Source: a virus | Reading direction: 5' to 3' (one strand) | Virus record (IMG/VR): IMGVR_UViG_3300025112_000157 | Span: 1-26,321 of that record | DNA length: 26,321 nt | Shown here: piece by piece, positions 4,157 to 25,094 of the stretch | Layout of the letters: the number at the start of each line of letters is the position of its first letter | Position numbering within the stretch: position 1 is the first letter of the stretch | Notes under the pieces: generated by a model | Seen by the model: only the letters and a program-made list of their open reading frames with translations | Databases searched by the model: none | Told to the model about the DNA's origin: nothing | Program-made: the position numbers and the translations under genes

Positions 4157-7081
4157 ATGTCAATCATTAAAATAACAAGGGACCTAATAGAGAAGGTCAC
4201 ACTAAAGACTCACCCACGTAGAGTCTTTGTGTCTTCTTCTGTAAGCCCTGTTAATGATGAACCCATGTCCGATGTTGGTATTCTTAGCCCGACTGGAACA
4301 CTTGGACAGGTTAGCCTCACACCTAGATCAAATAGAGTGATAAAGGGTGTCAGAGAGTTCGACTCAGAAAGCCCCTTGTTCAATGAAGATCAGTCATCTC
4401 TATTGATTAATCTAAGCAATGCAGTTGCGCTTTCTGGAACAACAACAGATATTCAAAACTATCTAGGGTATGCGACAGACTGGCCACACTCTGGAATTGA
4501 GAATGTAAATTTTCATGGAGATCCACCTGATCATGTAGGATATATGAAGGGTGTTGGACAGCTATCAAGACCTGCAAAAAATTCTAAGACTTTTGGAATT
4601 ACAAGATTTAGACCCCCATTTCTATTTCAGAATGATGAGCAAAAGTTTGGAGCAAAAGATTCCAATATTACATCTGGAAGCTTTGAAGCTAGTCAGAGAA
4701 TTGTTAAGAACCAAATTAGAAATATTCTTCTTCCAACGTCTAGGGGACAGTTTTCCCATCCCAACTATGCCTATACAAACTATCACTCACTTAACTTCTT
4801 TACGTCTTCAAATGGAAGTCAGATAGTTGGACACGGATCAACACTAAACTCTAGCCAGGTTACCACAAGCTCTGTTTTAATATACCCATGCATGACTGGA
4901 ACACTCAATCCATCGGGATCAGAATATCCAAATAGGAGATTAAGAAGGTTTGATGGAAAATATGCACCAGAGACAGCATTTACATTTGATTTTTACATAA
5001 ACCCAAGATATTCAAATGATGTAGATAGCTCAGCTAGAAAGAGTGACTTTCATGCAGGTACAATCTATCACATGAGCTCTACATATGCTGTGAGTCTGGT
5101 AACGGGATCTCTTAAAGCTGCAGACGGATCAGCAGAAGGATTTAGAATATTACTTCAGCTATCCCAAAGTGCAGAGTGGGAGCCTTCTAAGTTTAAAATA
5201 ATTCCCACCAGTGATAGACCCATATATAAGGGAGCTTCAGCAAACTATAAGACAGATCCATATAATCTAGCATGGGTATCTCCTGATAACTCACTTAAGA
5301 GAAACCATTGGCATCATGTTGCAATTAGGTGGGGCCCTAAGTCAAATAAGGGAACTGGAAGCTTTGTTATTGATGGCAAGATTGTTTCTGAATTCTATCC
5401 TGACATTGGAAGCGAAGTAAGTATCAGACCATTTGTAAATCAAACTGCAGCAGGCGCAAGAGCAATAGGTGATAGATTTTTGGCAGGAAGAGCAGATCCA
5501 AATGCGCTATTTATTGGTAACTTTTATGAAGGGACAAATGTAACCGGATCCAATGCAACGACAATAGAGCGATTCTTTAATCTTACAGCAAGAAAAAATG
5601 AAGGATTTACGCTGAGACCTGATATATCGGGATGGTCAAGGACTTTAAGTGTGGCAAAAGACACACCGTCAGAAATACAGCTAGGAGATCCAAAGACATT
5701 CTCTTTTAATCATCCTTTAAATGCTGAAGTTCATGATATTAAGCTATATTCAACATTTAGAACAATTTCTCAAATACAAACAAGCTCAGTCAGAGGCCCT
5801 GAAGATCTATCAAGCCTACTATTCTATGTTCCTCCATTTTTTACCTATGAGAAGCATGATAGGAGATTTTTATCAAATGCCGTTTCATCATCTCGTCGAC
5901 AAGACTTTAATGACACGGGAGGTGCCCTAGACGGTGTCTCGTATCCGACAGATAAGTTTGTACAACCGTATATGTCAATGCCCTTTAATGCAGGTCTTTC
6001 AATGGCAGTAGATGCTACACTTATCAATCTTGAAAACTTTACAAAGGATATTGTCAATGATGTCTATCCTCGACTTTTGTTTCTCACAGCTTCGTCACAA
6101 GCTGATAAGACTGGAAATCTATTTGTAGTACAGCCAAGAGACACTATAAATCATCTTTTTCAAACAGCATCACTTAGAAAAAGGTGCTTGACTGTTCTTC
6201 CCTGTGATAACGGAAGATTTCAGCCAAATTACGACCTAGTGTACACAGGATCAGATGTAACAGAGACAATAGTGTCATCTTCTGAGGGATTTTTATATAG
6301 AGATGATCTTGGAAATTTTGATCCAAGCTTGATAAACTTAAGCGACATGTTTACTGCCAGACCTTCACACGTATCACTTGCCGGACTAGATGAATCGTAT
6401 AGAATTTCACGTGCTTTGGCCTACTATACAGGTTCAGCTGGTGGAGGATTTCCATCCATGGGTCCAGATAATCCGTATCTACTGGCTCGTGAAGGAACTT
6501 CTGAAAACTACTTTATCGCATACCAGGCATCTAGAGATCCGTCTAGCAATGAAATTGTTATATTTAACATTCCCAATCTATTTTATGGAAATAGAATCCA
6601 ACCAGGAACATTTACACTTACAGACAGCAATCTATCCGGTTCTGCAGGAAAGGTTAAGATCACGCTTAAAGATGACTCTCTAGGATCCTTATACAGGGCT
6701 GACTCTAAGACAAAAAATGCTACATACAATAGTGTTGGAAATATCTTCTACGATGAGGGAATCGTCTTAATTAAGTCACCCCATCTAAGTCTTTTTGGAA
6801 AGAATCAATTTAAAATGGAATTCAACGGGGACCAAAACATCCATGTGATGGCAGTCAACGTTCCATGTCGACCTGGGCTGATAAATAGCTCATCAAATCC
6901 TGGATTTAGGGTTCTATCTGCGTCACTAGCGGCAAATGATGTTGATTCTGAGTTTGTCTACATTACAGGAATATACTTTCATGATGACAATATGAATGTT
7001 ATTATGAAAGTTAATCTTGCACAACCAGCAGTTAAGCGAGATGAAGATGATTTCTTATTTAGAGTTAAGATGGATTTTTAA
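4157..7081 (+). CDS. Large virion protein with LamG/concanavalin A-like domain (putative adhesin/baseplate)
   Basis: 974 residues. The N-terminus (LKTHPRRVFVSSSVSP) resembles a short anchoring segment of environmental phage structural proteins. Residues about 270-535 carry the signature of a laminin-G/concanavalin A-like jelly roll: TFDFYINP strand, a Ser/Thr-rich core, NHWHHVAIRWGP near residue 385, SFVIDGKIV, ALFIGNFYEG, and closing strand EVHDIKLYSTFRTISQI near 524. Such domains usually bind glycans, so host-surface or polysaccharide recognition is plausible but inferred. The C-terminal ~120 residues repeat the domain at the end of the preceding gene, ending VKRDEDDFLFRVKMDF. The ATG follows GGGGGT. 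Its TAA shares one base with the ATG of the resolvase gene, so translation of the two may be coupled. Confidence 0.65.
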   Translation: MSIIKITRDLIEKVTLKTHPRRVFVSSSVSPVNDEPMSDVGILSPTGTLGQVSLTPRSNRVIKGVREFDSESPLFNEDQSSLLINLSNAVALSGTTTDIQNYLGYATDWPHSGIENVNFHGDPPDHVGYMKGVGQLSRPAKNSKTFGITRFRPPFLFQNDEQKFGAKDSNITSGSFEASQRIVKNQIRNILLPTSRGQFSHPNYAYTNYHSLNFFTSSNGSQIVGHGSTLNSSQVTTSSVLIYPCMTGTLNPSGSEYPNRRLRRFDGKYAPETAFTFDFYINPRYSNDVDSSARKSDFHAGTIYHMSSTYAVSLVTGSLKAADGSAEGFRILLQLSQSAEWEPSKFKIIPTSDRPIYKGASANYKTDPYNLAWVSPDNSLKRNHWHHVAIRWGPKSNKGTGSFVIDGKIVSEFYPDIGSEVSIRPFVNQTAAGARAIGDRFLAGRADPNALFIGNFYEGTNVTGSNATTIERFFNLTARKNEGFTLRPDISGWSRTLSVAKDTPSEIQLGDPKTFSFNHPLNAEVHDIKLYSTFRTISQIQTSSVRGPEDLSSLLFYVPPFFTYEKHDRRFLSNAVSSSRRQDFNDTGGALDGVSYPTDKFVQPYMSMPFNAGLSMAVDATLINLENFTKDIVNDVYPRLLFLTASSQADKTGNLFVVQPRDTINHLFQTASLRKRCLTVLPCDNGRFQPNYDLVYTGSDVTETIVSSSEGFLYRDDLGNFDPSLINLSDMFTARPSHVSLAGLDESYRISRALAYYTGSAGGGFPSMGPDNPYLLAREGTSENYFIAYQASRDPSSNEIVIFNIPNLFYGNRIQPGTFTLTDSNLSGSAGKVKITLKDDSLGSLYRADSKTKNATYNSVGNIFYDEGIVLIKSPHLSLFGKNQFKMEFNGDQNIHVMAVNVPCRPGLINSSSNPGFRVLSASLAANDVDSEFVYITGIYFHDDNMNVIMKVNLAQPAVKRDEDDFLFRVKMDF

Positions 7082-7623
7082 TGGTACTTGGACTTGATAT
7101 ATCAACTAGCTGTACAGGGTGGTGTATAGTTGATCCGAGTGGTAGCTTAATAGCCATGGGATCAATTCCCCTTTCAAAAGATAAGTCAATGTTTAAAAAG
7201 GCACAAAAGGTTAGACGTGAGCTTTCCAGACTGAATATCGAGTATAGTATTGAAAAAGTCTGTGTTGAAGAAAACTTACAAGCATTTAGGCCCGGACTTT
7301 CTTCTGCAAAGACTCTTTTAACTCTTGCTAGATTTAATGGAATTGTGAGCTACATAGCACAGGAAGAGTTTTATTTTTCTCCGATTTTTATTAATGTTAA
7401 TTCTGCCAGAAAAGCACTTGGAATAAAGATTAAAAGAAAAAAAGACGGAGGAAAGCCCACTAAGGACCAGATCGTAGAATGGGCAGCTAGTGAGCTAAAT
7501 AGCTTTGTGTGGCCCACTAAGATATTAAAGAGCGGTCCAAGAAAAAATCAAAAAATTTTGGATCCATCTAGCTATGACATGGCAGATGCATACGTTATTT
7601 CAAGGGCAGGCTTGATTATTTGA
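7081..7623 (+). CDS. RuvC-like Holliday junction resolvase
   Basis: 180 residues with an RNase H-like RuvC fold. The first strand holds LGLDISTSCTGW with the first catalytic aspartate at D6; KVCVEEN places the glutamate at E63/E64; SYDMADAYV near the C-terminus gives D166 and D169. These match the four acidic metal ligands of RuvC-type structure-specific nucleases, which cut four-way junctions and other branched DNA. In a phage this would resolve recombination and replication intermediates before or during packaging. T4 uses the unrelated endonuclease VII (gp49) for that job; no homologue is seen here. The basic segment KIKRKKDGGKPTKDQ (about 115-130) could contact DNA. The start overlaps the previous stop by one base and there is no separate Shine-Dalgarno, so coupled translation is likely. 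Confidence 0.85.
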   Translation: MVLGLDISTSCTGWCIVDPSGSLIAMGSIPLSKDKSMFKKAQKVRRELSRLNIEYSIEKVCVEENLQAFRPGLSSAKTLLTLARFNGIVSYIAQEEFYFSPIFINVNSARKALGIKIKRKKDGGKPTKDQIVEWAASELNSFVWPTKILKSGPRKNQKILDPSSYDMADAYVISRAGLII

Positions 7624-7655
7624 AAAATATACCATATTGTGTTATGATATATTTG
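7620..7655 (+). promoter_or_regulatory. Predicted sigma70-type promoter for the primase
   Basis: A TTGAAA -35 box (7620-7625), exactly 17 bases of spacer, an extended -10 (TG at 7640-7641) and TATGAT (7643-7648) form one of the best bacterial promoter matches in the window. It overlaps the resolvase stop. With a six-base discriminator the transcript would begin at G7655, which is the first base of an in-frame GTG of the primase. AT-rich DNA produces chance matches, so activity is unproven. Confidence 0.5.
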
Positions 7656-8626
7656 TGGTAACGTTTACTAAAAAAATTTCATTCTTAAGAAGCGTTTTTG
7701 GACAGTGTGAGCTTGATAGGAAGCAGCAAAACGGAATATTTGTGTGCCCAGAGTGCGGATCTGGAACTGGTAAAAAGAAGTTCTATATAAATTTAGATAC
7801 ATGGCAATGTCATTGCTGGTCATGTGGGCTTAAGGGAAGAACAGTTCTTTCAATATTAAAAAAGCACGGAACTAGAGAAGATATTGAAAAATTTGTAAGC
7901 TATTCTGGAATTAAAAAAAATAATAATCAAATAGATCTGGACAGTGATCAAGACATTCAAAAGATTAGATTGCCTGAAGAGTTTTTGCTTTTAGCAGATA
8001 ATCAAAGATCTATAGATCCCGATGTCAGAGCCTGCATCAGATATCTAATGTCAAGAGGCGTGTCAGAGAGAGATCTCTGGCGATATAGGCTTGGGACAGC
8101 AAAGAGCGGTCGATTTAAGAGAAGAATAATAATTCCATCTTTTGACATGTCTGGTGACTTAAACTTCTTTGTCACTAGGTGTATTGACCCCGGAATAAGA
8201 AGAAAGTATATAAATTCAAATGTTAATAAAAAAAATATAGTATTTAATGAAATAGACATTGACTGGTCTAGCGAGATTGTTTTAGTTGAGGGTCCATTTG
8301 ATATGATGAAGTCAGGTATTAATTCAACATGTATTCTTGGATCAGCTTTAAGAGATGACTATCTTTTATTTTCAAGAATTGTATCTAGATGCACTCCTGT
8401 TATCCTTGCCCTAGATAGTGATATGAAAGAAAAAGAGCAAAAAATAGCAAAACTTCTAAGTTCATACGGATGCCAGGTTAAAATAATAGACTTGGGAGGA
8501 TTTTCTGATGTCGGATCAATGACCAAAGAAGATTTCAGGAACAGAAGGAAAAATGCACAAGCCTGGGATCCTTCACACCTTCTTAAGATGAAAATTGGTG
8601 CCATTAGGAGTGGATCTCTTCTTTAG
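7655..8626 (+). CDS. DNA primase (zinc finger plus Toprim)
   Basis: Makes RNA primers for lagging-strand synthesis. Numbered from the GTG at 7655 (323 residues, close to the 342 of T4 gp61), the CHC2-type zinc finger has CPEC (C31, C34) and CHCWSCG (C54, C57). The Toprim domain has LVEGPFDMMKSG with catalytic E212, and LALDSDMK with metal-binding D254 and D256. Between them a basic segment (RLGTAKSGRFKRRIIIPSFD) matches the RNA polymerase core of DnaG-type primases. The start is uncertain: there is no in-frame ATG before the zinc finger, only TTG at 7637 or GTG at 7655, neither with a Shine-Dalgarno. GTG is chosen because a predicted promoter would start RNA exactly there. No helicase gene is in the window. 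Confidence 0.85.
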   Translation: MVTFTKKISFLRSVFGQCELDRKQQNGIFVCPECGSGTGKKKFYINLDTWQCHCWSCGLKGRTVLSILKKHGTREDIEKFVSYSGIKKNNNQIDLDSDQDIQKIRLPEEFLLLADNQRSIDPDVRACIRYLMSRGVSERDLWRYRLGTAKSGRFKRRIIIPSFDMSGDLNFFVTRCIDPGIRRKYINSNVNKKNIVFNEIDIDWSSEIVLVEGPFDMMKSGINSTCILGSALRDDYLLFSRIVSRCTPVILALDSDMKEKEQKIAKLLSSYGCQVKIIDLGGFSDVGSMTKEDFRNRRKNAQAWDPSHLLKMKIGAIRSGSLL

Positions 8627-9052: not shown

Positions 9053-9090
9053 TTGTACAAGCAGTCATTGATAGAATAATATAGATTATA
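9053..9090 (+). promoter_or_regulatory. Possible promoter directly at the start of the Mre11-Rad50 fusion gene
   Basis: TTGTAC (9053-9058) lies 18 bases from TAATAT (9077-9082). A seven-base discriminator puts the expected transcription start at A9090, the first base of the ATG. The -35 box sits inside a perfect palindrome CTTGTACAAG (9052-9061), which could be an operator half-site pair. There is no Shine-Dalgarno upstream of the ATG. The -35 match is only moderate. Confidence 0.35.
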
Positions 9091-12000
9091 TGAGGATAAT
9101 TCACATAGCAGATGTCCACTGGCGTGGGCTTTCTCGACATGATGAGTATAGGGAATCATTCTCAGCTTTTATTAAGCAAGCTAGGGACTTACAGCCCGAT
9201 ATCATTTATGTGGGAGGAGATATAGTTCACTCTAAGACTCAGGGGATTTCCCCTGAGTTGATTGACTGTCTTTGCTGGTGGTTTACAGAATTATCAAAAA
9301 TCTGTCATGTTCATGTAATATTGGGAAATCATGACGGATTGCTCAACAACAAGGGCCGCCAGGATGCTATTAGTCCAATCCTGTCAGCTCTGGATAATCA
9401 TAGAGTTCATGTATATAAGAAATCAGGTGTATATCCCACCGGTGTAACAGGATTCAACTGGTGTGTCTTTTCTTGCTTTGATGAGGATGGCTGGAAGGAT
9501 ATTTCTCCCATTGAGAATGAAGTAAATATTGCACTCTACCACGGCGGAGTGTGGGGATCTAAGACAGATATTGATTGGGAGATTGAAGGCGAAGTTGATC
9601 TAGAATTCTTTTCAGATTATGATTTTGCACTTCTAGGAGATATTCACAAGGCACAATTTTTAAATGATAAAAAAACCGTAGCTTATTGTGGGTCGTCAAT
9701 TCAGCAAAACTATGGAGAAGGTGAAGGGAAGGGATTTTTATTTTGGGATATTAGGGATAAGGATGACTTTGACGTAACTTTTTATGAAATCCCACACTCT
9801 CAGCCGTTTGTTACAATTGACTGGCTTGACAATATCGATACTACTCTTTCATCAACAGGAAGCCTAGCAAGTGGATCAAGATTTAGAATTAGATCTGATA
9901 AAAAAATTCATCAATCAGATATAGTAACACTCTATAAGCGGCTAAAGGATCAAAAGAATGCAACAGAAGTAGTGTTTAAAATCGATCATGAAGTCGACCC
10001 AGGAATAATATCTGCAGATGGAGAATCTTTTTCAAAGAAAAATCTTAGAGATTTTTCTGTTCATCAGCGATTAATGAGAAATTATTATGAAAATACAGAA
10101 ATATCTAATGAAAATTGGATAAAAATTGAAGAAAAAATTTCTAGATACGTTGGCATTATTTCTAAAAAAGATTCAATAGCAAGAAATACAAGATGGTCTA
10201 TAAGAAATCTATCGTTTGATAACACATTTGGATATGGAAAGGGAAATATTTTAAGCTTTGATAAGCTGGGGGGAATTACCGGTATTTTTGGAAAAAATAG
10301 ACAGGGAAAGTCTTCTATAATTGGATCTCTAATGTACTGCCTCTACAACACAACAGATCGAGGCGGAATTAAAAATATTCACATAATCAATTCAAGAAAG
10401 AAGCACTGTAAGGCAAAAGTTGAAATTGATGTAAATGGAGCAAAGTATAGAATAGAAAGGGGTACTGTTAAGCATCAAGCAAGAAAGGGACACGTCTATG
10501 CAACAACTAGTTTAACAATATCAAAAATTGATGACCAGGGATTTGTCATTGAAGACATGTCAGGTGAGCAAAGAAGGGATACAGAAAAAATTGTTCAGAA
10601 ATTAATAGGAACATCTGATGATTTTTTATTGACATCTCTAGCATCTCAAGGTGAGATGAATGCTTTCATTAAGGAAAAGGCAACGTCTCGGAAAAATATC
10701 TTAAATAAATTTTTAGATCTTGAAATATTTGATTTAATGTTCTCAATGGCAAAAGAGGAGTCTTCTGAAATTAGACTAAAAGCTAAGAATCTACCGAAGA
10801 TTGACTGGGATAGTGAAATTGGCATACAAGAGAAAGAAATTAAAGATAGTAGAGAAAAAATAAATAAAATTGAATTATTTTTAAATAAGCTAAGGTCACA
10901 GCATCAAGACTTAAGAATACAGCTTGCAACATCACCAGAAAGAGATGTAGTAACTTCTCAAGATGTCTCTAATCAAAAAGATCTGATATCAAACACCCTA
11001 AGATCATTATTCGAAATTAGAAAAGAATTAAAAGAACATTCTAATGAAATTCTTGAATCAGAAAATAAGATTAAAAAGATAGAAATAGTCAAATCTCAGT
11101 TCCCCCTAGAACAAATAAAGGAAGAGCTTTTAGAGCTTAGAAGTATAAATACAGAACTTCTTAAGCTTGAACACGAGATAGATAGACAGAAGACTGTTCT
11201 AAAAAATCAGGAGAAGTCTATTAGAAAGCTAGAAGGAGTTCCGTGTGGTGATAAATTTCCTAAATGTAAGTTTATTAAAGATTCTCACAAAAATAAGCTA
11301 AAAATAGATGATCAAAAAGAGCTCATATCACTCCTATCCTCTCAGGCAAGAGATGCACGCAGAAGAATTAAGCGTCTTGATGAAAAAGAGCTAGAAGAGA
11401 AGATTCAAAGGTATGATGAAATTTTAGCTAAGGAATCATCATTAAAAGTTTTAATTTCATCAATAAGTGTAAAGATTCATAAAATGAGTAGTCAAGTATT
11501 TCAATTTGAGAAAAAATTAGAATCTTCTAGAGATGACCTTGCAAATATGGAAATACACGTTGTAGATGATTCAGAAAGTAGCGTGATTTTAAAGATTAAA
11601 AGAAAAATTTCTGAAATAGTTGACAAAATAACCATTGCTGATGCAAAGCGTCTCTCTCTTGTTGAAGAGGTTGGAAAGTTTGAAATGAAGCTTTCAAACT
11701 TTCTAGAAGAAAAAGAAATGTCAAATAGGGTCTGTAATGATCTTGAAGTCTATGACCTTATTATGCAAGCTGTATCTAAAAAGGGAATCCCAAGACTAAT
11801 TATGAGATCTCAGCTGCCATATATTAATAATGAAATATCAAAAATTCTTCAAGGAGTAATGGGATTTACTGTTGAGCTAGAGGCAGATTCAGATACTAAC
11901 TCAATGGACGTCTTTATCAACTATGGAGATTCTAGACGAATTATTGAGCTTGGATCCGGAATGGAAAAAATGATATCGTCTCTTGCAATAAGGGTTGCAT

Positions 12001-12227
12001 TGATTAATGTTTCTTCACTTCCAAAGCCAGATGTGTTTATTATTGATGAAGGATTTGGTAGTTTAGATGAGAATAATATTGCTTCTTGTAATTTATTACT
12101 CAATTCTATGAGAAAATGGTTTAAAAATATTATGATTATTTCTCATGTTGACGGTGTAAAAGATGTTGTTGACAATATTTTAGACATATCTCTATGTGGA
12201 AAAGATGCCAAAATCACGTACAACTAA
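9090..12227 (+). CDS. Single-chain Mre11-Rad50 (SbcD-SbcC, gp47-gp46) nuclease/ATPase fusion
   Basis: 1045 residues that join two proteins separate in T4. Residues 1-240 are an Mre11-type phosphoesterase: IADVH (D8, H10), GGD (D44), GNHD (N80, H81, D82), YHGG (H151) and GDIH (D184, H186). After a linker, a Rad50-type SMC ATPase runs from about 369: Walker A GKNRQGKSS (401-409), Q-loop ASQGEMNAF (Q520), long coiled coils about 575-715 and 735-880, a hook-like turn with C719 and C726, signature LGSGMEK (954-960), Walker B VFIIDEGFGSLD (D986, E987) and SHVD (H1019). The complex processes DNA ends to start recombination-dependent replication and may degrade host DNA. The frame is open throughout, so the fusion is not an annotation artefact. 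No Shine-Dalgarno precedes the ATG. Confidence 0.9.
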   Translation: MRIIHIADVHWRGLSRHDEYRESFSAFIKQARDLQPDIIYVGGDIVHSKTQGISPELIDCLCWWFTELSKICHVHVILGNHDGLLNNKGRQDAISPILSALDNHRVHVYKKSGVYPTGVTGFNWCVFSCFDEDGWKDISPIENEVNIALYHGGVWGSKTDIDWEIEGEVDLEFFSDYDFALLGDIHKAQFLNDKKTVAYCGSSIQQNYGEGEGKGFLFWDIRDKDDFDVTFYEIPHSQPFVTIDWLDNIDTTLSSTGSLASGSRFRIRSDKKIHQSDIVTLYKRLKDQKNATEVVFKIDHEVDPGIISADGESFSKKNLRDFSVHQRLMRNYYENTEISNENWIKIEEKISRYVGIISKKDSIARNTRWSIRNLSFDNTFGYGKGNILSFDKLGGITGIFGKNRQGKSSIIGSLMYCLYNTTDRGGIKNIHIINSRKKHCKAKVEIDVNGAKYRIERGTVKHQARKGHVYATTSLTISKIDDQGFVIEDMSGEQRRDTEKIVQKLIGTSDDFLLTSLASQGEMNAFIKEKATSRKNILNKFLDLEIFDLMFSMAKEESSEIRLKAKNLPKIDWDSEIGIQEKEIKDSREKINKIELFLNKLRSQHQDLRIQLATSPERDVVTSQDVSNQKDLISNTLRSLFEIRKELKEHSNEILESENKIKKIEIVKSQFPLEQIKEELLELRSINTELLKLEHEIDRQKTVLKNQEKSIRKLEGVPCGDKFPKCKFIKDSHKNKLKIDDQKELISLLSSQARDARRRIKRLDEKELEEKIQRYDEILAKESSLKVLISSISVKIHKMSSQVFQFEKKLESSRDDLANMEIHVVDDSESSVILKIKRKISEIVDKITIADAKRLSLVEEVGKFEMKLSNFLEEKEMSNRVCNDLEVYDLIMQAVSKKGIPRLIMRSQLPYINNEISKILQGVMGFTVELEADSDTNSMDVFINYGDSRRIIELGSGMEKMISSLAIRVALINVSSLPKPDVFIIDEGFGSLDENNIASCNLLLNSMRKWFKNIMIISHVDGVKDVVDNILDISLCGKDAKITYN

Positions 12228-12513
12228 AGCTTTAAAAGACTATATTCAGATAGTTCATAAGTCTGGGCTTATAGTTACTCAACCTAAAAATCTAATAGAC
12301 CCAATTCCGTTGTTTTGCAGTGTATGTACATTGTCTATGAGCGGTGAATTAGATAAGGCATATTATAAAAAATACTCTTGTTGCTCATCATGCGGGATGA
12401 AATGGGCAGATATGAACCAAGAGAATTGGAAAAATGGATGGAGACCCACAAAGGTCGAAATATCAAGTGAAAGAGATAGAAGAGTGTCTGATTTCGTTTC
12501 TTTCTCTTTGTAG
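12205..12513 (+). CDS. Small zinc-ribbon protein of unknown function
   Basis: 102 residues from the ATG at 12205; a GTG three codons earlier (12196) is less likely because GGAAAAG sits just ahead of the ATG. It overlaps the end of the Mre11-Rad50 gene by 23 bases, so expression is probably coupled. Two cysteine pairs, CSVC and CSSCG (with an extra Cys ahead of the second), separated by about 22 residues form a likely treble-clef or zinc-ribbon site. After the second pair, MKWADMNQENWKNGWRP is rich in tryptophan. Zinc ribbons of this size often bind nucleic acid or proteins. The pattern is familiar from uncharacterised phage proteins, but no function can be assigned. Confidence 0.65.
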   Translation: MPKSRTTKALKDYIQIVHKSGLIVTQPKNLIDPIPLFCSVCTLSMSGELDKAYYKKYSCCSSCGMKWADMNQENWKNGWRPTKVEISSERDRRVSDFVSFSL

Positions 12514-12542: not shown

Positions 12543-12923
12543 ATGCTAAACTTTAGTGAAGTCAATATACTAGGAAATATTTGTGATACTACTGTTGGAA
12601 GATCTTCAACCACAAGGTCGCCAACTATGTCTATTAAGACAAGCTTGCAGGATGATAAGTTTTCTGTAACGTATATGACAATTGTAAATCTGGGCTCAGT
12701 TTATGAAATGAGAGACCTTACAAAAAAATATGAAGAAGAGTCAATTAAGATTATTAATGACTATGTTAAGAGTGTTAAAAAAGAATTTAAATCAGAGTCT
12801 GGAAGAGCTTTAAAGGTAAAGGAGCTTAATTCTAGAGATGTTGTTGATGTAATTACAGCTTCTGCATTCTCACCTAAGCGAAATGCTTACTATAAGAGAA
12901 TAACAACGTTTCGTGTTGAATAA
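12543..12923 (+). CDS. Unknown protein immediately upstream of terminase large subunit
   Basis: 126 residues. The N-terminal half is beta-like (LNFSEVNILGNICDTTVG, KFSVTYMTIVNLGSVYEM); residues about 55-85 form a charged helix (LTKKYEEESIKIINDYVKSV); the C-terminus is basic and aromatic (SPKRNAYYKRITTFRVE). GGGGTG precedes the ATG. Its TAA overlaps the TerL ATG by one base. The small terminase often occupies this position, but no helix-turn-helix or coiled-coil oligomerisation pattern typical of small terminases is evident, so I do not assign that. It could equally be a neck, head-completion or tail protein. Confidence 0.55.
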   Translation: MLNFSEVNILGNICDTTVGRSSTTRSPTMSIKTSLQDDKFSVTYMTIVNLGSVYEMRDLTKKYEEESIKIINDYVKSVKKEFKSESGRALKVKELNSRDVVDVITASAFSPKRNAYYKRITTFRVE

Positions 12924-14548
12924 TGGCTTCCACGAATAAATCTAGACAAGTTAAAGAGATTATAAAATGTGGAAAAGATCCCGTTTATTTCTTTAATAAG
13001 TACACAAGAATTCAACACCCAGTTAGAGGGCTGATACCTTTTGATACATACCCATTTCAGGATGATTGTGTAGATGATTTTATTCAAAATAGATTTTCAA
13101 TAATAGTCAAGTCGAGACAGCTTGGTCTATCAACTCTTACTGCAGCGTATGCAACCTGGCTTGCGATTTTTCAAAAAGATAAGAACATCCTTATCATTGC
13201 AACAAAACTAAGTGTTGCTCAAAACTTCATTAAAAAAGTTAAGACAATAATAAGAAACTTACCACCATGGTTAGTTCTTCCCCAAATTGTAACAAATAAT
13301 AAGCAGCTTCTAGAATTTAGTCACGGATCATCAATTAAGGCCATACCGACATCAGAAGATGCAGGCCGATCTGAAGCTCTGAGCCTTTTAATTGTTGACG
13401 AGGCTGCATTTGTTAGAAATTTCGATGAGCTTTGGATGGGGCTATACCCTACAATATCTACTGGTGGACGTGTTGTTATTCTTTCAACTCCAAATGGAGT
13501 CGGAGGTCAGTATCATGAATTATTTACAAATGCAGAAGCAGGATTGAATGAATTTAAGGCGATAAGGCTTCCGTGGGATGTCCACCCAGAAAGAGATCAA
13601 GAATGGTTTGACAAAGAGACTAGAAACTTTTCAGCAAGAAAGGTTGCACAAGAATATCTTTGTGATTTTGCATCATCTGGTGAGACATTTCTTACAGATG
13701 AAGATTTAAAATATCTTCAATCACAGATAAAGAGCCCTGTAGATCGGGGAGGTAGGGATATGAATGTATGGATCTGGAAGTATCCCCTTTCTGATCACAG
13801 ATATATTCTATCAGCAGACGTCGCAAGGGGAGACTCTAAGGATTATTCATCATTTCATATTATCGATGTTGATGAGAACGAGGTTGTTGCAGAGTATAAG
13901 GGAAAAATCCCGCCAGATGATTTTGCTGTCCTTATCAATGAATTTGGATTAAAGTATAACAAAGCAGTTGTTTGCCCTGAGAACAATAGCTATGGATTTG
14001 CAACTATAATCAAGCTTAAGGATTTAAACTATCCTACACTCTACTATAGAAGAAGAAAAGCAGTCTTAATTGGTGACTATATACCCCCGGGAAATACAGA
14101 GATTGCAGGCTTTACCACTAGTGGCAAAACAAGAGGGCTGATCTTGACAAAGCTTGAAGAGGTTATTAGAAATAAGCAGATAAAAATTCACTCTTCCAGA
14201 TTTTATGAAGAAATGAAGACATTTATCTGGAAGGGAAATAAGGCACAGGCAATGAGAGGAAACTACAATGATGATCTTGTCATAAGCCTTGCAATAGGTC
14301 TCTGGCTTTATGATTCTGCTTCAGATCACAGTAGAAACTCTACAGCCCTCAATAAGGCAATGCTTGAGGGAATGTCAGTAAAGCAGAATACTTTTGATAT
14401 GCCGAGAGATATCCCAGGGGCACTTACAGAGGGAAGGCCATATAATCCCATAAGAACTGATTCTGATGGAAAAAGACAGGGAAAGTGGGAAGATAGGTGG
14501 GGAGAAAGAAATATTATACCTCCCGAATATGACTGGGTGTATAAATAA
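12923..14548 (+). CDS. Terminase large subunit (gp17-like packaging ATPase/nuclease)
   Basis: 541 residues (T4 gp17 is 610). The motor docks on the portal and pumps DNA into the prohead, then cuts it. N-terminal ATPase: YPFQDD adenine-binding region (about 43-48), Walker A variant KSRQLGLST (63-71), Walker B LLIVDE (D159, E160), then the coupling motif ILSTPNG (187-192). C-terminal RNase H-fold nuclease: LSADVARGDSKDYS with D299 and further acidic residues, CPENNSYG with E353, and NDDLVISLAIGLW with D450/D451. This is the arrangement of T4-type terminases using headful packaging. The start overlaps the previous stop by one base. Unlike T4, the next gene is the portal, with no tail sheath or tube genes between. 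Confidence 0.93.
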   Translation: MASTNKSRQVKEIIKCGKDPVYFFNKYTRIQHPVRGLIPFDTYPFQDDCVDDFIQNRFSIIVKSRQLGLSTLTAAYATWLAIFQKDKNILIIATKLSVAQNFIKKVKTIIRNLPPWLVLPQIVTNNKQLLEFSHGSSIKAIPTSEDAGRSEALSLLIVDEAAFVRNFDELWMGLYPTISTGGRVVILSTPNGVGGQYHELFTNAEAGLNEFKAIRLPWDVHPERDQEWFDKETRNFSARKVAQEYLCDFASSGETFLTDEDLKYLQSQIKSPVDRGGRDMNVWIWKYPLSDHRYILSADVARGDSKDYSSFHIIDVDENEVVAEYKGKIPPDDFAVLINEFGLKYNKAVVCPENNSYGFATIIKLKDLNYPTLYYRRRKAVLIGDYIPPGNTEIAGFTTSGKTRGLILTKLEEVIRNKQIKIHSSRFYEEMKTFIWKGNKAQAMRGNYNDDLVISLAIGLWLYDSASDHSRNSTALNKAMLEGMSVKQNTFDMPRDIPGALTEGRPYNPIRTDSDGKRQGKWEDRWGERNIIPPEYDWVYK

Positions 14549-22182: not shown

Positions 22183-24123
22183 ATGAGTAAATCCTTTACG
22201 TTAAATCAATTAACAGAAGGCATTCGTCAGCGTCACCTGGGTGCACAGAACAGAAGACTTGTTGAGAAGTGGTCACGTACCGGTCTTCTCAGAGGTCTTG
22301 ACGGACAGCACCGAGAGAACATGGCAAGCCTTTTAGAAAACCAGGCTGCACAGCTACTTAGAGAGGCAAACTCTGTTGGTACCGGTGCTGGTGCTGGTTC
22401 AGCTTCTGGTGACCTTCAAGGGTTCACCAACATTGCTTTCCCAATCGTTCGTCGTGTTTTCGGCGGTCTGGTTGCAAATGAGCTTGTTTCAATCCAGCCA
22501 ATGAGCCTTCCTTCCGGTCTGCTCTTCTATCTGGACTACACATACGGCTCACGTCGTGGTGGTGATACTAACAATGCTACTGGCGCTGCCGGTTCAGCAG
22601 ATGCTCAGACCTATAAGATGGGTCAGTCAATCTACAACCTTCCTACTGGAAAGGGAGTCCGTTCAGGCTCTACTGCAGTTGGAGGCCATTACGACCTAGT
22701 TGGCGCTGGATTCACTAAGGTTCACAAGACCACTGAGGCAATTACCGTTGCAGCTTCTGGTGCATATGGAAATACTGCTGATGCAATTACAGTTGCTACG
22801 AAAGCAGTTGCAACAGGTACAGATGGAAAACTTCTTCAGTTCGATCCACAGCTTACAAGACTTATTGAAGGCGACCCTGGTCAGAACGGAGATGGAATAT
22901 TCTCATTCGTTCTATGGAACCTGAGTTCATTCCCATCAAGCATTGATCTTACACAGGCAAAAGAAGTTGGTCTTTTCTCAACTACAGCTGCCGGTGTAGA
23001 TCCAACATCTACAACAGAGCTAGGATACTGTGACATACCTGATTCAATACAGGCAGGAAACGGAATTCTAAATGTTCGACGTCTGAATCAGCTTGGTACA
23101 TACAACTCAAACACTGGTATATTCACATCAAATCCATTTGCTGATAGAAATACATCAAACGGTGTTCTACTGACAGTCGTGTCAGGTGCAACAAGAGTTA
23201 GAACAGTTCCTCACCAGGTTCTGATCACAGCTTCTTATGTGATCTCGCCAACACTTACTGTTGATAGTTCTGACGGTGCAGCTCTTACGATTCCATCGTT
23301 TGAGTCCAACTTCAGTTCATCCTCACCTTCACCGATCATCCCTGAGATCGACATCAAGATCGAGTCAATCGCTGTTACAGCGGTAACCCGTAAGCTACGT
23401 GCTCGCTGGTCACCAGAACTTGCTCAGGACCTGAATGCTTACCACAGCCTTGACGCTGAGGTTGAGCTCACACAGATCCTCTCAGAGCAGGTCGCACTCG
23501 AGATCGATAGAGAGATTCTTAATGATCTACTCGTTGAAGCACAGGGAGCTAACTACTACTGGTCACGTCTACCAGGTAAGTTTGTTAACAAGAGATCAGG
23601 CGCTGAAGCCACCAAGGCTAGTTCACTAGCTTCAGGTCCTCAGTTTACTGGTACTGTTCGCGAATGGTACGAGACACTAGTTGAGACAATCATCGATGTT
23701 GCTAACGAGATCCACAGAAAGACACTTCGTGGTTCCGCTAACTTCCTCGTGACCTCACCAGATGTTGCTACAATCTTCGAGTCATCGGTTCTCTACAAGC
23801 CATCACTCAAGATCGACGGCGACGGACAGGTTGGTGCTCCATTCTCACTGGGTGCTGCACAGATCGGTTCTCTAAGCAACCGCTTCACAGTCTACAAGGA
23901 TCCGTACTTCCCACGGAACAAGGTCCTCGTCGGCTACAAGGGTGGAAGCTATCTAGAGACAGGTTACGTATACGCACCTTACGTACCGCTGATCGTCACT
24001 CCTACTATCTTCCAGCCGGAAGACTTCACACCCCGTAAGGGCGTGATGACCCGGTACGGCAAGAAGATGGTTCGTGCTGACTTCTACGGTACAGTAACAT
24101 GTATGGATATGGACGTTATCTAA
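22183..24123 (+). CDS. Major capsid protein (gp23-like, HK97 fold)
   Basis: 646 residues, about 125 more than T4 gp23. Family-specific segments include VANELVSIQPMSLPSGLLFY (about 104-123), then TRKLRARWSPELAQDLNAYH with DAEVELTQILSEQVALEIDR (about 400-445), and near the end NKVLVGYKGGSYLETGYVYA with APYVPL and TRYGKKM. The first 61 residues form a delta-like propeptide; QLLRE followed by ANSVGT at E61 resembles the T4 cleavage point (FLTE then AEIGG at E65). Residues about 187-385 form a long insert between the two conserved halves, rich in Thr, Gly and Asp, where T4 has a shorter insertion domain. Codons are more CGT/GGT/CTG-rich than elsewhere, as expected for the most abundant virion protein. 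AGGAG precedes the ATG; a strong terminator follows. Confidence 0.95.
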   Translation: MSKSFTLNQLTEGIRQRHLGAQNRRLVEKWSRTGLLRGLDGQHRENMASLLENQAAQLLREANSVGTGAGAGSASGDLQGFTNIAFPIVRRVFGGLVANELVSIQPMSLPSGLLFYLDYTYGSRRGGDTNNATGAAGSADAQTYKMGQSIYNLPTGKGVRSGSTAVGGHYDLVGAGFTKVHKTTEAITVAASGAYGNTADAITVATKAVATGTDGKLLQFDPQLTRLIEGDPGQNGDGIFSFVLWNLSSFPSSIDLTQAKEVGLFSTTAAGVDPTSTTELGYCDIPDSIQAGNGILNVRRLNQLGTYNSNTGIFTSNPFADRNTSNGVLLTVVSGATRVRTVPHQVLITASYVISPTLTVDSSDGAALTIPSFESNFSSSSPSPIIPEIDIKIESIAVTAVTRKLRARWSPELAQDLNAYHSLDAEVELTQILSEQVALEIDREILNDLLVEAQGANYYWSRLPGKFVNKRSGAEATKASSLASGPQFTGTVREWYETLVETIIDVANEIHRKTLRGSANFLVTSPDVATIFESSVLYKPSLKIDGDGQVGAPFSLGAAQIGSLSNRFTVYKDPYFPRNKVLVGYKGGSYLETGYVYAPYVPLIVTPTIFQPEDFTPRKGVMTRYGKKMVRADFYGTVTCMDMDVI

Positions 24124-24180: not shown

Positions 24181-24216
24181 TTAACTGATTTTAGAAGAAT
24201 CGGTAAGATTTTTAAA
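24181..24216 (+). promoter_or_regulatory. Possible promoter at the start of the sulfotransferase gene
   Basis: TTAACT (24181-24186), 17 bases, TAAGAT (24204-24209), then six bases to the ATG at 24216. Each box matches the consensus at four of six positions. It sits right after the capsid terminator, where a new promoter is needed. The expected RNA start coincides with the ATG. GGTAAG at 24202 could alternatively be a poor ribosome binding site on a longer transcript. Confidence 0.35.
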
Positions 24217-25094
24217 TGATTATTTCACATAAAAATAATTTTATATTCTTTAAGCCTATGAAGGTTGCAGGCTCCAGTGTAGAGGTTTCACTGAGCAAAC
24301 ATTGTGACAGCGGTGACGTCCTAACCGGAACAAATCATTTTGACGAGATCACTTCACAGGAATATTCGTATCCAACAAGAAACAATATTGTCAAACACAG
24401 GTTAAAAAATGAAGTTGCATTAGCTGCATTGAGCAAAAGTGGAAACATTCACAAAGTTACACCTGATATGATTAAGTCTGGTGTATTTGTTGAGGTCCCC
24501 GAGCCAAGATTTCACATGCATGCTCTCCCACATCAGGTGTTTAAAAAGTATGAGAGAGATGTATCGGGGTATAGAAAGATTACGATTGTTAGAAATCCAT
24601 GGGATATGATCGTGTCTTTCTTTTGGTGGTCATTTTACACTACACCGGCTGGATATATTGATCCCAGTGGTGTTCCACACGCCCGCAATATGAGTACTGG
24701 GTTTAGTCAAAGAAGTCATCCAGAAGTTGCTCCAACACCGCTAGACAGTGCAGAATCACTTAGGCAAAAGCTAGAGATATTTTTACAGCTTTCTGGAAAT
24801 TTTAACGGACCACTTGGACTTGAGAAGGATAAGAATGTCCTAGATTGGTTTATAGGAATGAATGAGAGATTCTATGACATAGATTATGATAATATTCTAA
24901 GATATGAAAATCTTCAAAATGACTATGACAGTCTGTGTGATTCACTCATGATTGAGAAGTCAATCCTTCCCAGGCTAAAGAGCAGCCAGAGAAAGAGCAA
25001 GATTCCATATCGTGAGTATTTTAATAGATGGTCTCTATCCCACATAGAGAATAAACTGTCTATGTGGATAAATAATTTTAATTATTCGTTTTAG
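24216..25094 (+). CDS. Sulfotransferase-family protein (PAPS-dependent)
   Basis: 292 residues. Transfers sulfate from PAPS to an acceptor, if active. The N-terminus runs straight into the phosphosulfate-binding loop, FIFFKPMKVAGSSVEVSL (9-26), the position of the K-T-G-S/T motif in Sulfotransfer_2-type proteins. The 3'-phosphate-binding segment is ITIVRNPWDMIVSFF, with R126 and S134 as expected ligands. A probable helix-rich C-terminus includes YENLQNDYDSLCDSL, also common in the family. The acceptor cannot be told: host or phage glycan, lipid or protein are all possible. The gene is set apart by the capsid terminator before it and a predicted promoter after it, between the capsid gene and a probable decoration gene, which looks like a moron-type insertion. 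No signal peptide. Confidence 0.8.
   Translation: MIISHKNNFIFFKPMKVAGSSVEVSLSKHCDSGDVLTGTNHFDEITSQEYSYPTRNNIVKHRLKNEVALAALSKSGNIHKVTPDMIKSGVFVEVPEPRFHMHALPHQVFKKYERDVSGYRKITIVRNPWDMIVSFFWWSFYTTPAGYIDPSGVPHARNMSTGFSQRSHPEVAPTPLDSAESLRQKLEIFLQLSGNFNGPLGLEKDKNVLDWFIGMNERFYDIDYDNILRYENLQNDYDSLCDSLMIEKSILPRLKSSQRKSKIPYREYFNRWSLSHIENKLSMWINNFNYSF

Follow-up and report, generated by a model that had tools for sequence, protein, structure and literature searches.

The window analysed here is the full stretch (positions 1 to 26,321, to which all coordinates refer) of the 26-kb viral record IMGVR_UViG_3300025112_000157. A gene at 9090-12227, with an ATG at 9090, a stop codon at 12225-12227 and no internal stops, encodes a protein of 1045 residues composed of an N-terminal Mre11/SbcD nuclease followed by a C-terminal Rad50/SbcC ATPase with a coiled coil. 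The fusion gene, its parts and its conserved neighbours are as follows.

7081..7623, plus strand: RuvC-like Holliday junction resolvase, conserved neighbour upstream of the fusion (PHROG 159, synteny)
7637..8626, plus strand: DNA primase-like protein, conserved neighbour upstream of the fusion (PHROG 47; TIGR01391 below cut-off; synteny)
9090..12227, plus strand: fused Mre11-Rad50 (SbcD-SbcC) gene, 1045 residues plus stop (ORF, Pfam, PHROG, intact frames of relatives)
9090..9788, plus strand: Mre11/SbcD phosphoesterase core, about residues 1-233, with D8, H10, D44, N80, H81, H151 and H186 (Pfam, AlphaFold2, alignment)
9636..9647, plus strand: G183-D184-I185-H186, the canonical GHxH with Asp for the first His (alignment; same swap reported for Mimivirus R555)
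9789..9995, plus strand: Mre11 capping domain, about residues 234-302, boundary approximate (AlphaFold2; Foldseek match to 7dog, an SbcD nuclease-plus-capping structure)
9996..10052, plus strand: loop 303-321 between cap and helix-loop-helix, flexible at 303-313 with pLDDT <50 (AlphaFold2)
10053..10169, plus strand: Mre11 helix-loop-helix, predicted Rad50-binding domain, residues 322-360 (AlphaFold2 and profile alignment)
10170..10199, plus strand: actual fusion linker, about residues 361-370 (profile alignment; SbcD ends at 362, SbcC starts at 371)
10200..10721, plus strand: Rad50 N-lobe, residues from about 368/371 to 544, with Walker A G401-S408 and Q-loop Q520 (PF13476, AlphaFold2, alignment)
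10722..11237, plus strand: outgoing coiled-coil arm, residues 545-716 (AlphaFold2)
11238..11276, plus strand: coil apex, residues 717-729, with C719-X6-C726 (11244-11267) for the usual CXXC hook (alignment)
11277..11774, plus strand: returning coiled-coil arm, residues 730-895 (AlphaFold2)
11775..12224, plus strand: Rad50 C-lobe, residues 896-1045, with signature SGMEK 956-960, Walker B 982-987 and H1019 (AlphaFold2, alignment)
12923..14548, plus strand: T4-type terminase large subunit, conserved downstream neighbour (Pfam, PHROG, synteny)

A preliminary description of this DNA held that Mre11 and Rad50 lie in one uninterrupted frame of 1045 residues, and this is borne out both by the reading frame and by Pfam, PHROG and NCBIfam models, which match both halves. 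The Pfam Metallophos (calcineurin-like phosphoesterase) family matches residues 1-186 (E 1.9e-11), the PHROG SbcC family matches residues 269-1035 (E 5e-52), and PF13476 (AAA_23) scores above cut-off at 10218-10901; the NCBIfam sbcd and sbcc models each match one half, both below their curated cut-offs. Related loci were collected in a first search of viral contigs with the fusion protein, which returned 22, and in a second, alignment-based search, from which the best 80 of at least about 600 candidates were kept. A family alignment of 61 sequences was used for residue conservation and as AlphaFold2 input. The resulting model has a mean pLDDT of 85 and a pTM of 0.52, the latter expected for a protein with a long flexible coil; being of a monomer, it does not bear on dimer geometry or on packing in cis or trans. 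It runs from phosphoesterase core, capping domain, flexible loop and two helices to the ATPase N-lobe, the coil arm out, the apex, the arm back and the C-lobe. Foldseek searches with the model matched SbcD, Rad50 and fused viral proteins; the top matches are giant-virus fusions at 18-25% identity, and Listeria and Tenacibaculum phage fusions were also among the best.

All elements expected of a Rad50/SbcC ATPase (Walker A, Q-loop, signature, Walker B and H-loop) are present at the residues proposed earlier, with K407, S408, Q520, S956, D986 and E987 invariant in the 61-sequence alignment and H1019 kept in 60 of 61. D8, H10, D44, N80, H81, D82, H151 and H186 are invariant as well, so that the Mre11 residues named in the preliminary description all stand, but its statement that every Mre11 motif is present is not quite correct, because the first His of GHxH is replaced by D184, a substitution that had been overlooked. 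Six of the seven two-metal ligands (Asp, His, Asp, Asn, His, His, His) are identical in the fusion, and the seventh is Asp184, a plausible metal ligand. Asp is a common metal ligand. D184 is invariant (61 of 61 aligned sequences), as is H47, which gives GDxxH for GDxxD. Asp in GDxH is also found in Microcystis phage Mel-JY01, the huge phage LR756501 and Tenacibaculum phage pT24, while the His of GHxH is kept in E. coli, T4, SPO1, Lactobacillus phage 3-521, Romulus and the Listeria fusion. GDxxH occurs in split Herelleviridae proteins too, so only GDxH is diagnostic here.

The apex of the coiled coil differs from the CXXC zinc hook found in the other phage and bacterial Rad50s compared. Its motif, VPCGDxFPxC, has CX6C spacing, with C719 in 58 and C726 in all 61 of the aligned sequences; the first Cys is lost in L019 and L020. 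It is through the ATPase head and coil, rather than the hook, that the fusion is recognised as a Rad50 homologue. A 62-residue apex query gave nothing meaningful among GenBank phages, and a narrow query of the literature on variant zinc hooks, a weak test, returned no description of a CX6C apex.

At the junction between the two enzymes, residues 320-368 had been taken for the linker, and a disordered linker in this position is ruled out by both the AlphaFold2 model, in which helices 322-332 and 340-360 occupy most of the span, and the family profile, in which residues 172-362 correspond to E. coli SbcD 210-399 and residue 371 onward to SbcC from residue 3. Since most of this span belongs to the Mre11 helix-loop-helix, the true added linker is confined to about residues 361-370 and measures about 8-10 residues. 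The cap and helix-loop-helix are both retained between nuclease and ATPase, and across the family the span equivalent to residues 300-372 is 70-75 residues long. For other Mre11/Rad50 fusions, a gap of ~28 Å and nine to twelve linker residues were inferred (Yoshida, Claverie and Ogata 2011, PMC3175470), and the argument for a short linker is the same as that made here for the phage fusion.

The order RuvC, primase, fusion, terminase is widely retained among the relatives. Across 112 loci, many of them cut by contig ends, the primase was found in 90, the terminase in 97 and RuvC in 72. A GTG-initiated ORF of 105 residues at 12196-12513 overlaps the final 32 bases of the fusion gene and is probably a real gene of uncertain start, since its homologues directly follow the fusion in 78 of the 112 loci. 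Pfam assigns the portal, the prohead protease and the capsid protein to T4-like families, and the terminase matches the T4-type family. In GenBank, the nearest relatives judged from capsid and terminase are Microcystis phage Mel-JY01, Flavobacterium immuto phages and a huge uncultured phage; the capsid comparison also brings Rhodothermus RM378 near. These relationships suggest that the phage falls within the Far-T4 phages of Roux et al. (PMC4360716). In the gp23-type major capsid protein (22183-24123, 646 residues) the first half contains ~270 residues without a Pfam match, probably a large insertion domain, and similarity to Pfam Gp23 picks up again at residue 379. An ORF of 292 residues at 24216-25094 has a weak, short PHROG match to a galactose-3-O-sulfotransferase (phrog_3347, residues 216-261).

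Twelve relatives of 102-289 kb, in records not certified complete, were searched for a separate Rad50, and PF13476 matched nothing in them but the fusion; PF00149 likewise hit nothing beyond the fusion except, in 2 of the 12, a single small free-standing phosphoesterase. Because of the status of these records the absence of a second Rad50 is not proof, but the result indicates that the fusion would be the only Mre11-Rad50 in these 12 relatives. Ten of the 12 encode RecA, as does Mel-JY01. A sole copy accompanied by RecA fits a fusion that would stand in for T4 gp46/gp47 during recombination-dependent replication.

Several relatives depart from the simple arrangement. In L027:2944-7166 (LR756508.1, a 484-kb uncultured phage) the fusion gene is split just past GDIHKRQ, within its Mre11 part, by a ~300-residue ORF that has a TnsA-like endonuclease domain and looks like the insertion of a homing endonuclease. 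L102:255-3533 and L103, 99.9% identical and from two metagenomes, carry in the same Mre11 loop an insertion of ~50 residues with an in-frame TAA, placing the split inside the nuclease domain and not at the fusion joint. Rfam searches gave no group I intron match in L027 or L102, and an intron of this type was rejected as the cause. Tenacibaculum phage pT24 (L121:4980-8912) encodes a 1310-residue 'metallo-phosphoesterase' that is an Mre11-Rad50 fusion with GDIH. Relatives in the genome collection are all in metagenome-assembled genomes, with L110-L113 and L115 assigned to Halobacteriovorax, Methylococcaceae, Acidiferrobacteraceae, Flavobacteriales and Nitrosopelagicus. L110-L113 have the phage neighbours seen around the fusion here, with terminase and portal among them in L110-L112, and are therefore probably phage contigs binned with hosts; L115 has only a primase match. 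On these relatives, cellular fusions belonging to this phage clade were rejected.

An assembly or sequencing artefact could in principle have merged two adjacent genes through loss of a stop codon: the E. coli genes sbcD and sbcC have 4 bases (ATGA) in common, and a small error might join genes placed in this way; a broken version, L021, interrupted in the Rad50 part, is present in an assembly. However, at least 87 other distinct viral contigs (duplicates removed) carry an uninterrupted fusion frame of at least 1033 codons, with 33-82% identity among those aligned, the exceptions besides L021 being several frames ended by a contig edge and the stop inside the Mre11 part of L102/L103. The junction conserves both its length and its reading-frame bias; counted over residues 316-372 against four close relatives, the differences number 30 at first, 24 at second and 88 at third codon positions, a third-position excess that points to one continuous coding frame. 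Single-frame fusions are also present in the genomes of the isolates Microcystis phage Mel-JY01, Listeria phage LMTA-57 and Tenacibaculum phage pT24. The same domain order, which the earlier account had proposed to seek in other phage and metagenome proteins, is thus found repeatedly, and its concern that a sequencing error might hide a stop at residues 300-370 is dispelled by dozens of independent contigs together with the codon-position bias. We regard the artefact as refuted, its remaining probability being negligible. Alternatively, one genuine frame could give two proteins, with internal initiation or proteolysis freeing a separate Rad50 and the fusion being a mere precursor. The poorly modeled loop 303-313 is a possible cleavage site, and an in-frame ATG occurs at M329, the sole ATG, GTG or TTG in frame between residues 300 and 400. 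This codon, however, is positioned within helix 322-332 of the helix-loop-helix, with no obvious ribosome-binding site in the 20 bases upstream, and start codons are absent from the short true linker; we judge the production of two proteins very unlikely.

The protein might instead have diverged from DNA-end processing, serving, through its Asp site and altered hook, to tether ends structurally or to cut with another specificity. Asp184, which is invariant, and the nearly invariant CX6C apex are not the canonical metal ligand and hook, and activity and tethering might be different as a result. Yet all remaining metal ligands and the ATPase motifs are invariant, the substituting Asp is itself a frequent metal ligand, and the 12 long relatives show no other Rad50 match, while RecA occurs in 10 of them, a combination that leaves such divergence very unlikely. 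A further proposal, and an unlikely one, is that the clade forms a distinct Mre11-Rad50 variant, in which an Asp second metal site and CX6C would confer a different nuclease specificity and a different tether (perhaps non-zinc or differently spaced), and in which fusion would make both changes co-evolve.

The reading that we consider highly probable is that of a complete SbcD/Mre11 nuclease joined head-to-tail with a complete SbcC/Rad50 ATPase, constituting the phage's only such machine, forming an M2R2 complex and having a role like that of T4 gp46/47. The analysis shows the domain order, the intact motifs, their conservation, the lack of a second Rad50 in the long relatives, the predicted fold and the neighbourhood of primase, RuvC, T4-like packaging genes and, in relatives, RecA; from these we infer the oligomeric state, the cis packing, the nuclease and ATPase activities and the role in infection. 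The preliminary description proposed that fusion might alter the coupling of the nuclease to the ATPase. Mre11 and Rad50 subunits assemble 2:2 even as separate proteins. With only about 8-10 residues added, ordinary M2R2 architecture is consequently the simplest reading of the fusion. Two chains would pair into the usual assembly, with the Mre11 cores dimerizing and the helix-loop-helix (322-360) predicted to pack on the coiled-coil root of its own chain, which the linker could reach. The two Rad50 heads would sandwich ATP, whose binding and hydrolysis would control whether DNA ends can enter the two-metal nuclease site; the apex of the coil may tie two DNA ends or two complexes. In the infected cell, DNA ends, and possibly host DNA, would be processed into substrates for the phage RecA-like recombinase and so feed recombination-dependent replication and repair, the part played in T4 by gp46/47. 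By this analogy, the making of recombinogenic DNA ends is the likely role of the fusion.

In trees of the joint, Mre11 and Rad50 cores, 22 GDxH fusions, including this one, fall on one side of a branch with SH-aLRT support of 99, 93 and 90, respectively. The Listeria fusion groups with the split proteins of Staphylococcus phage Romulus in the joint (99) and Rad50 (95) trees. Because the trees contain several long branches and only a small outgroup of split proteins, the deep nodes and the depth of the first fusion event are unsure. The pairing of the Listeria fusion with split Romulus leaves a single origin of all phage fusions unsupported and indicates that phages fused these genes at least twice, once in the T4-like clade and once in Listeria phages, in agreement with the recurrent creation of such fusions proposed in 2011 (PMC3175470).

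The fusion is a real, conserved protein of a kind already described, and this gene is a new member and no discovery. Mre11/Rad50 fusions were reported in 2011 in Mimivirus (R555), plasmids, bacteria, eukaryotes and one Bacillus phage; from marine metagenomes, R555 homologues were inferred to be abundant in aquatic viruses, probably including phages, and phage primase genes were found to adjoin them on the scaffolds (PMC3175470). The novelty implied by the preliminary description is therefore not upheld. The relatives collected here are full-length members in full context, where the 2011 metagenomes confirmed only a few long sequences, and they tie the family to abundant marine T4-like phages. 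A single-chain Mre11-Rad50 with a linker of 8-10 residues could also suit structural work on the complex as a construct.

Compared by published description, the fusion resembles the Mimivirus R555-like proteins in domain order, in GDxxH (H47) and GDxH (D184), both of which are substitutions reported for R555 (PMC3175470), in marine viral origin and in its primase neighbours. It differs in size and host virus, R555 having 1351 residues and belonging to a eukaryotic giant virus, rather than 1045 residues in a T4-like phage. The protein of Microcystis phage Mel-JY01 (WWT39521.1, 'AAA domain containing protein') is a full-length fusion with 27.6% identity over the whole query, the GDIH motif and a primase two genes upstream, as here, but its apex is CKHC, with conventional CXXC spacing. 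The Listeria Pecentumvirus 'recombination exonuclease' (LMTA-57, AID17555.1) also carries Mre11 and Rad50 in one chain, of 1009 residues, but has the canonical GHYH and a CPTC hook, and its grouping with the split Romulus pair marks it as an independent fusion. E. coli SbcCD and T4 gp46/gp47 are the same two enzymes with the same motifs, the profile spanning SbcD to 399 and SbcC from 3, but they are encoded by two separate genes and have the GHxH metal motif and the CXXC hook.
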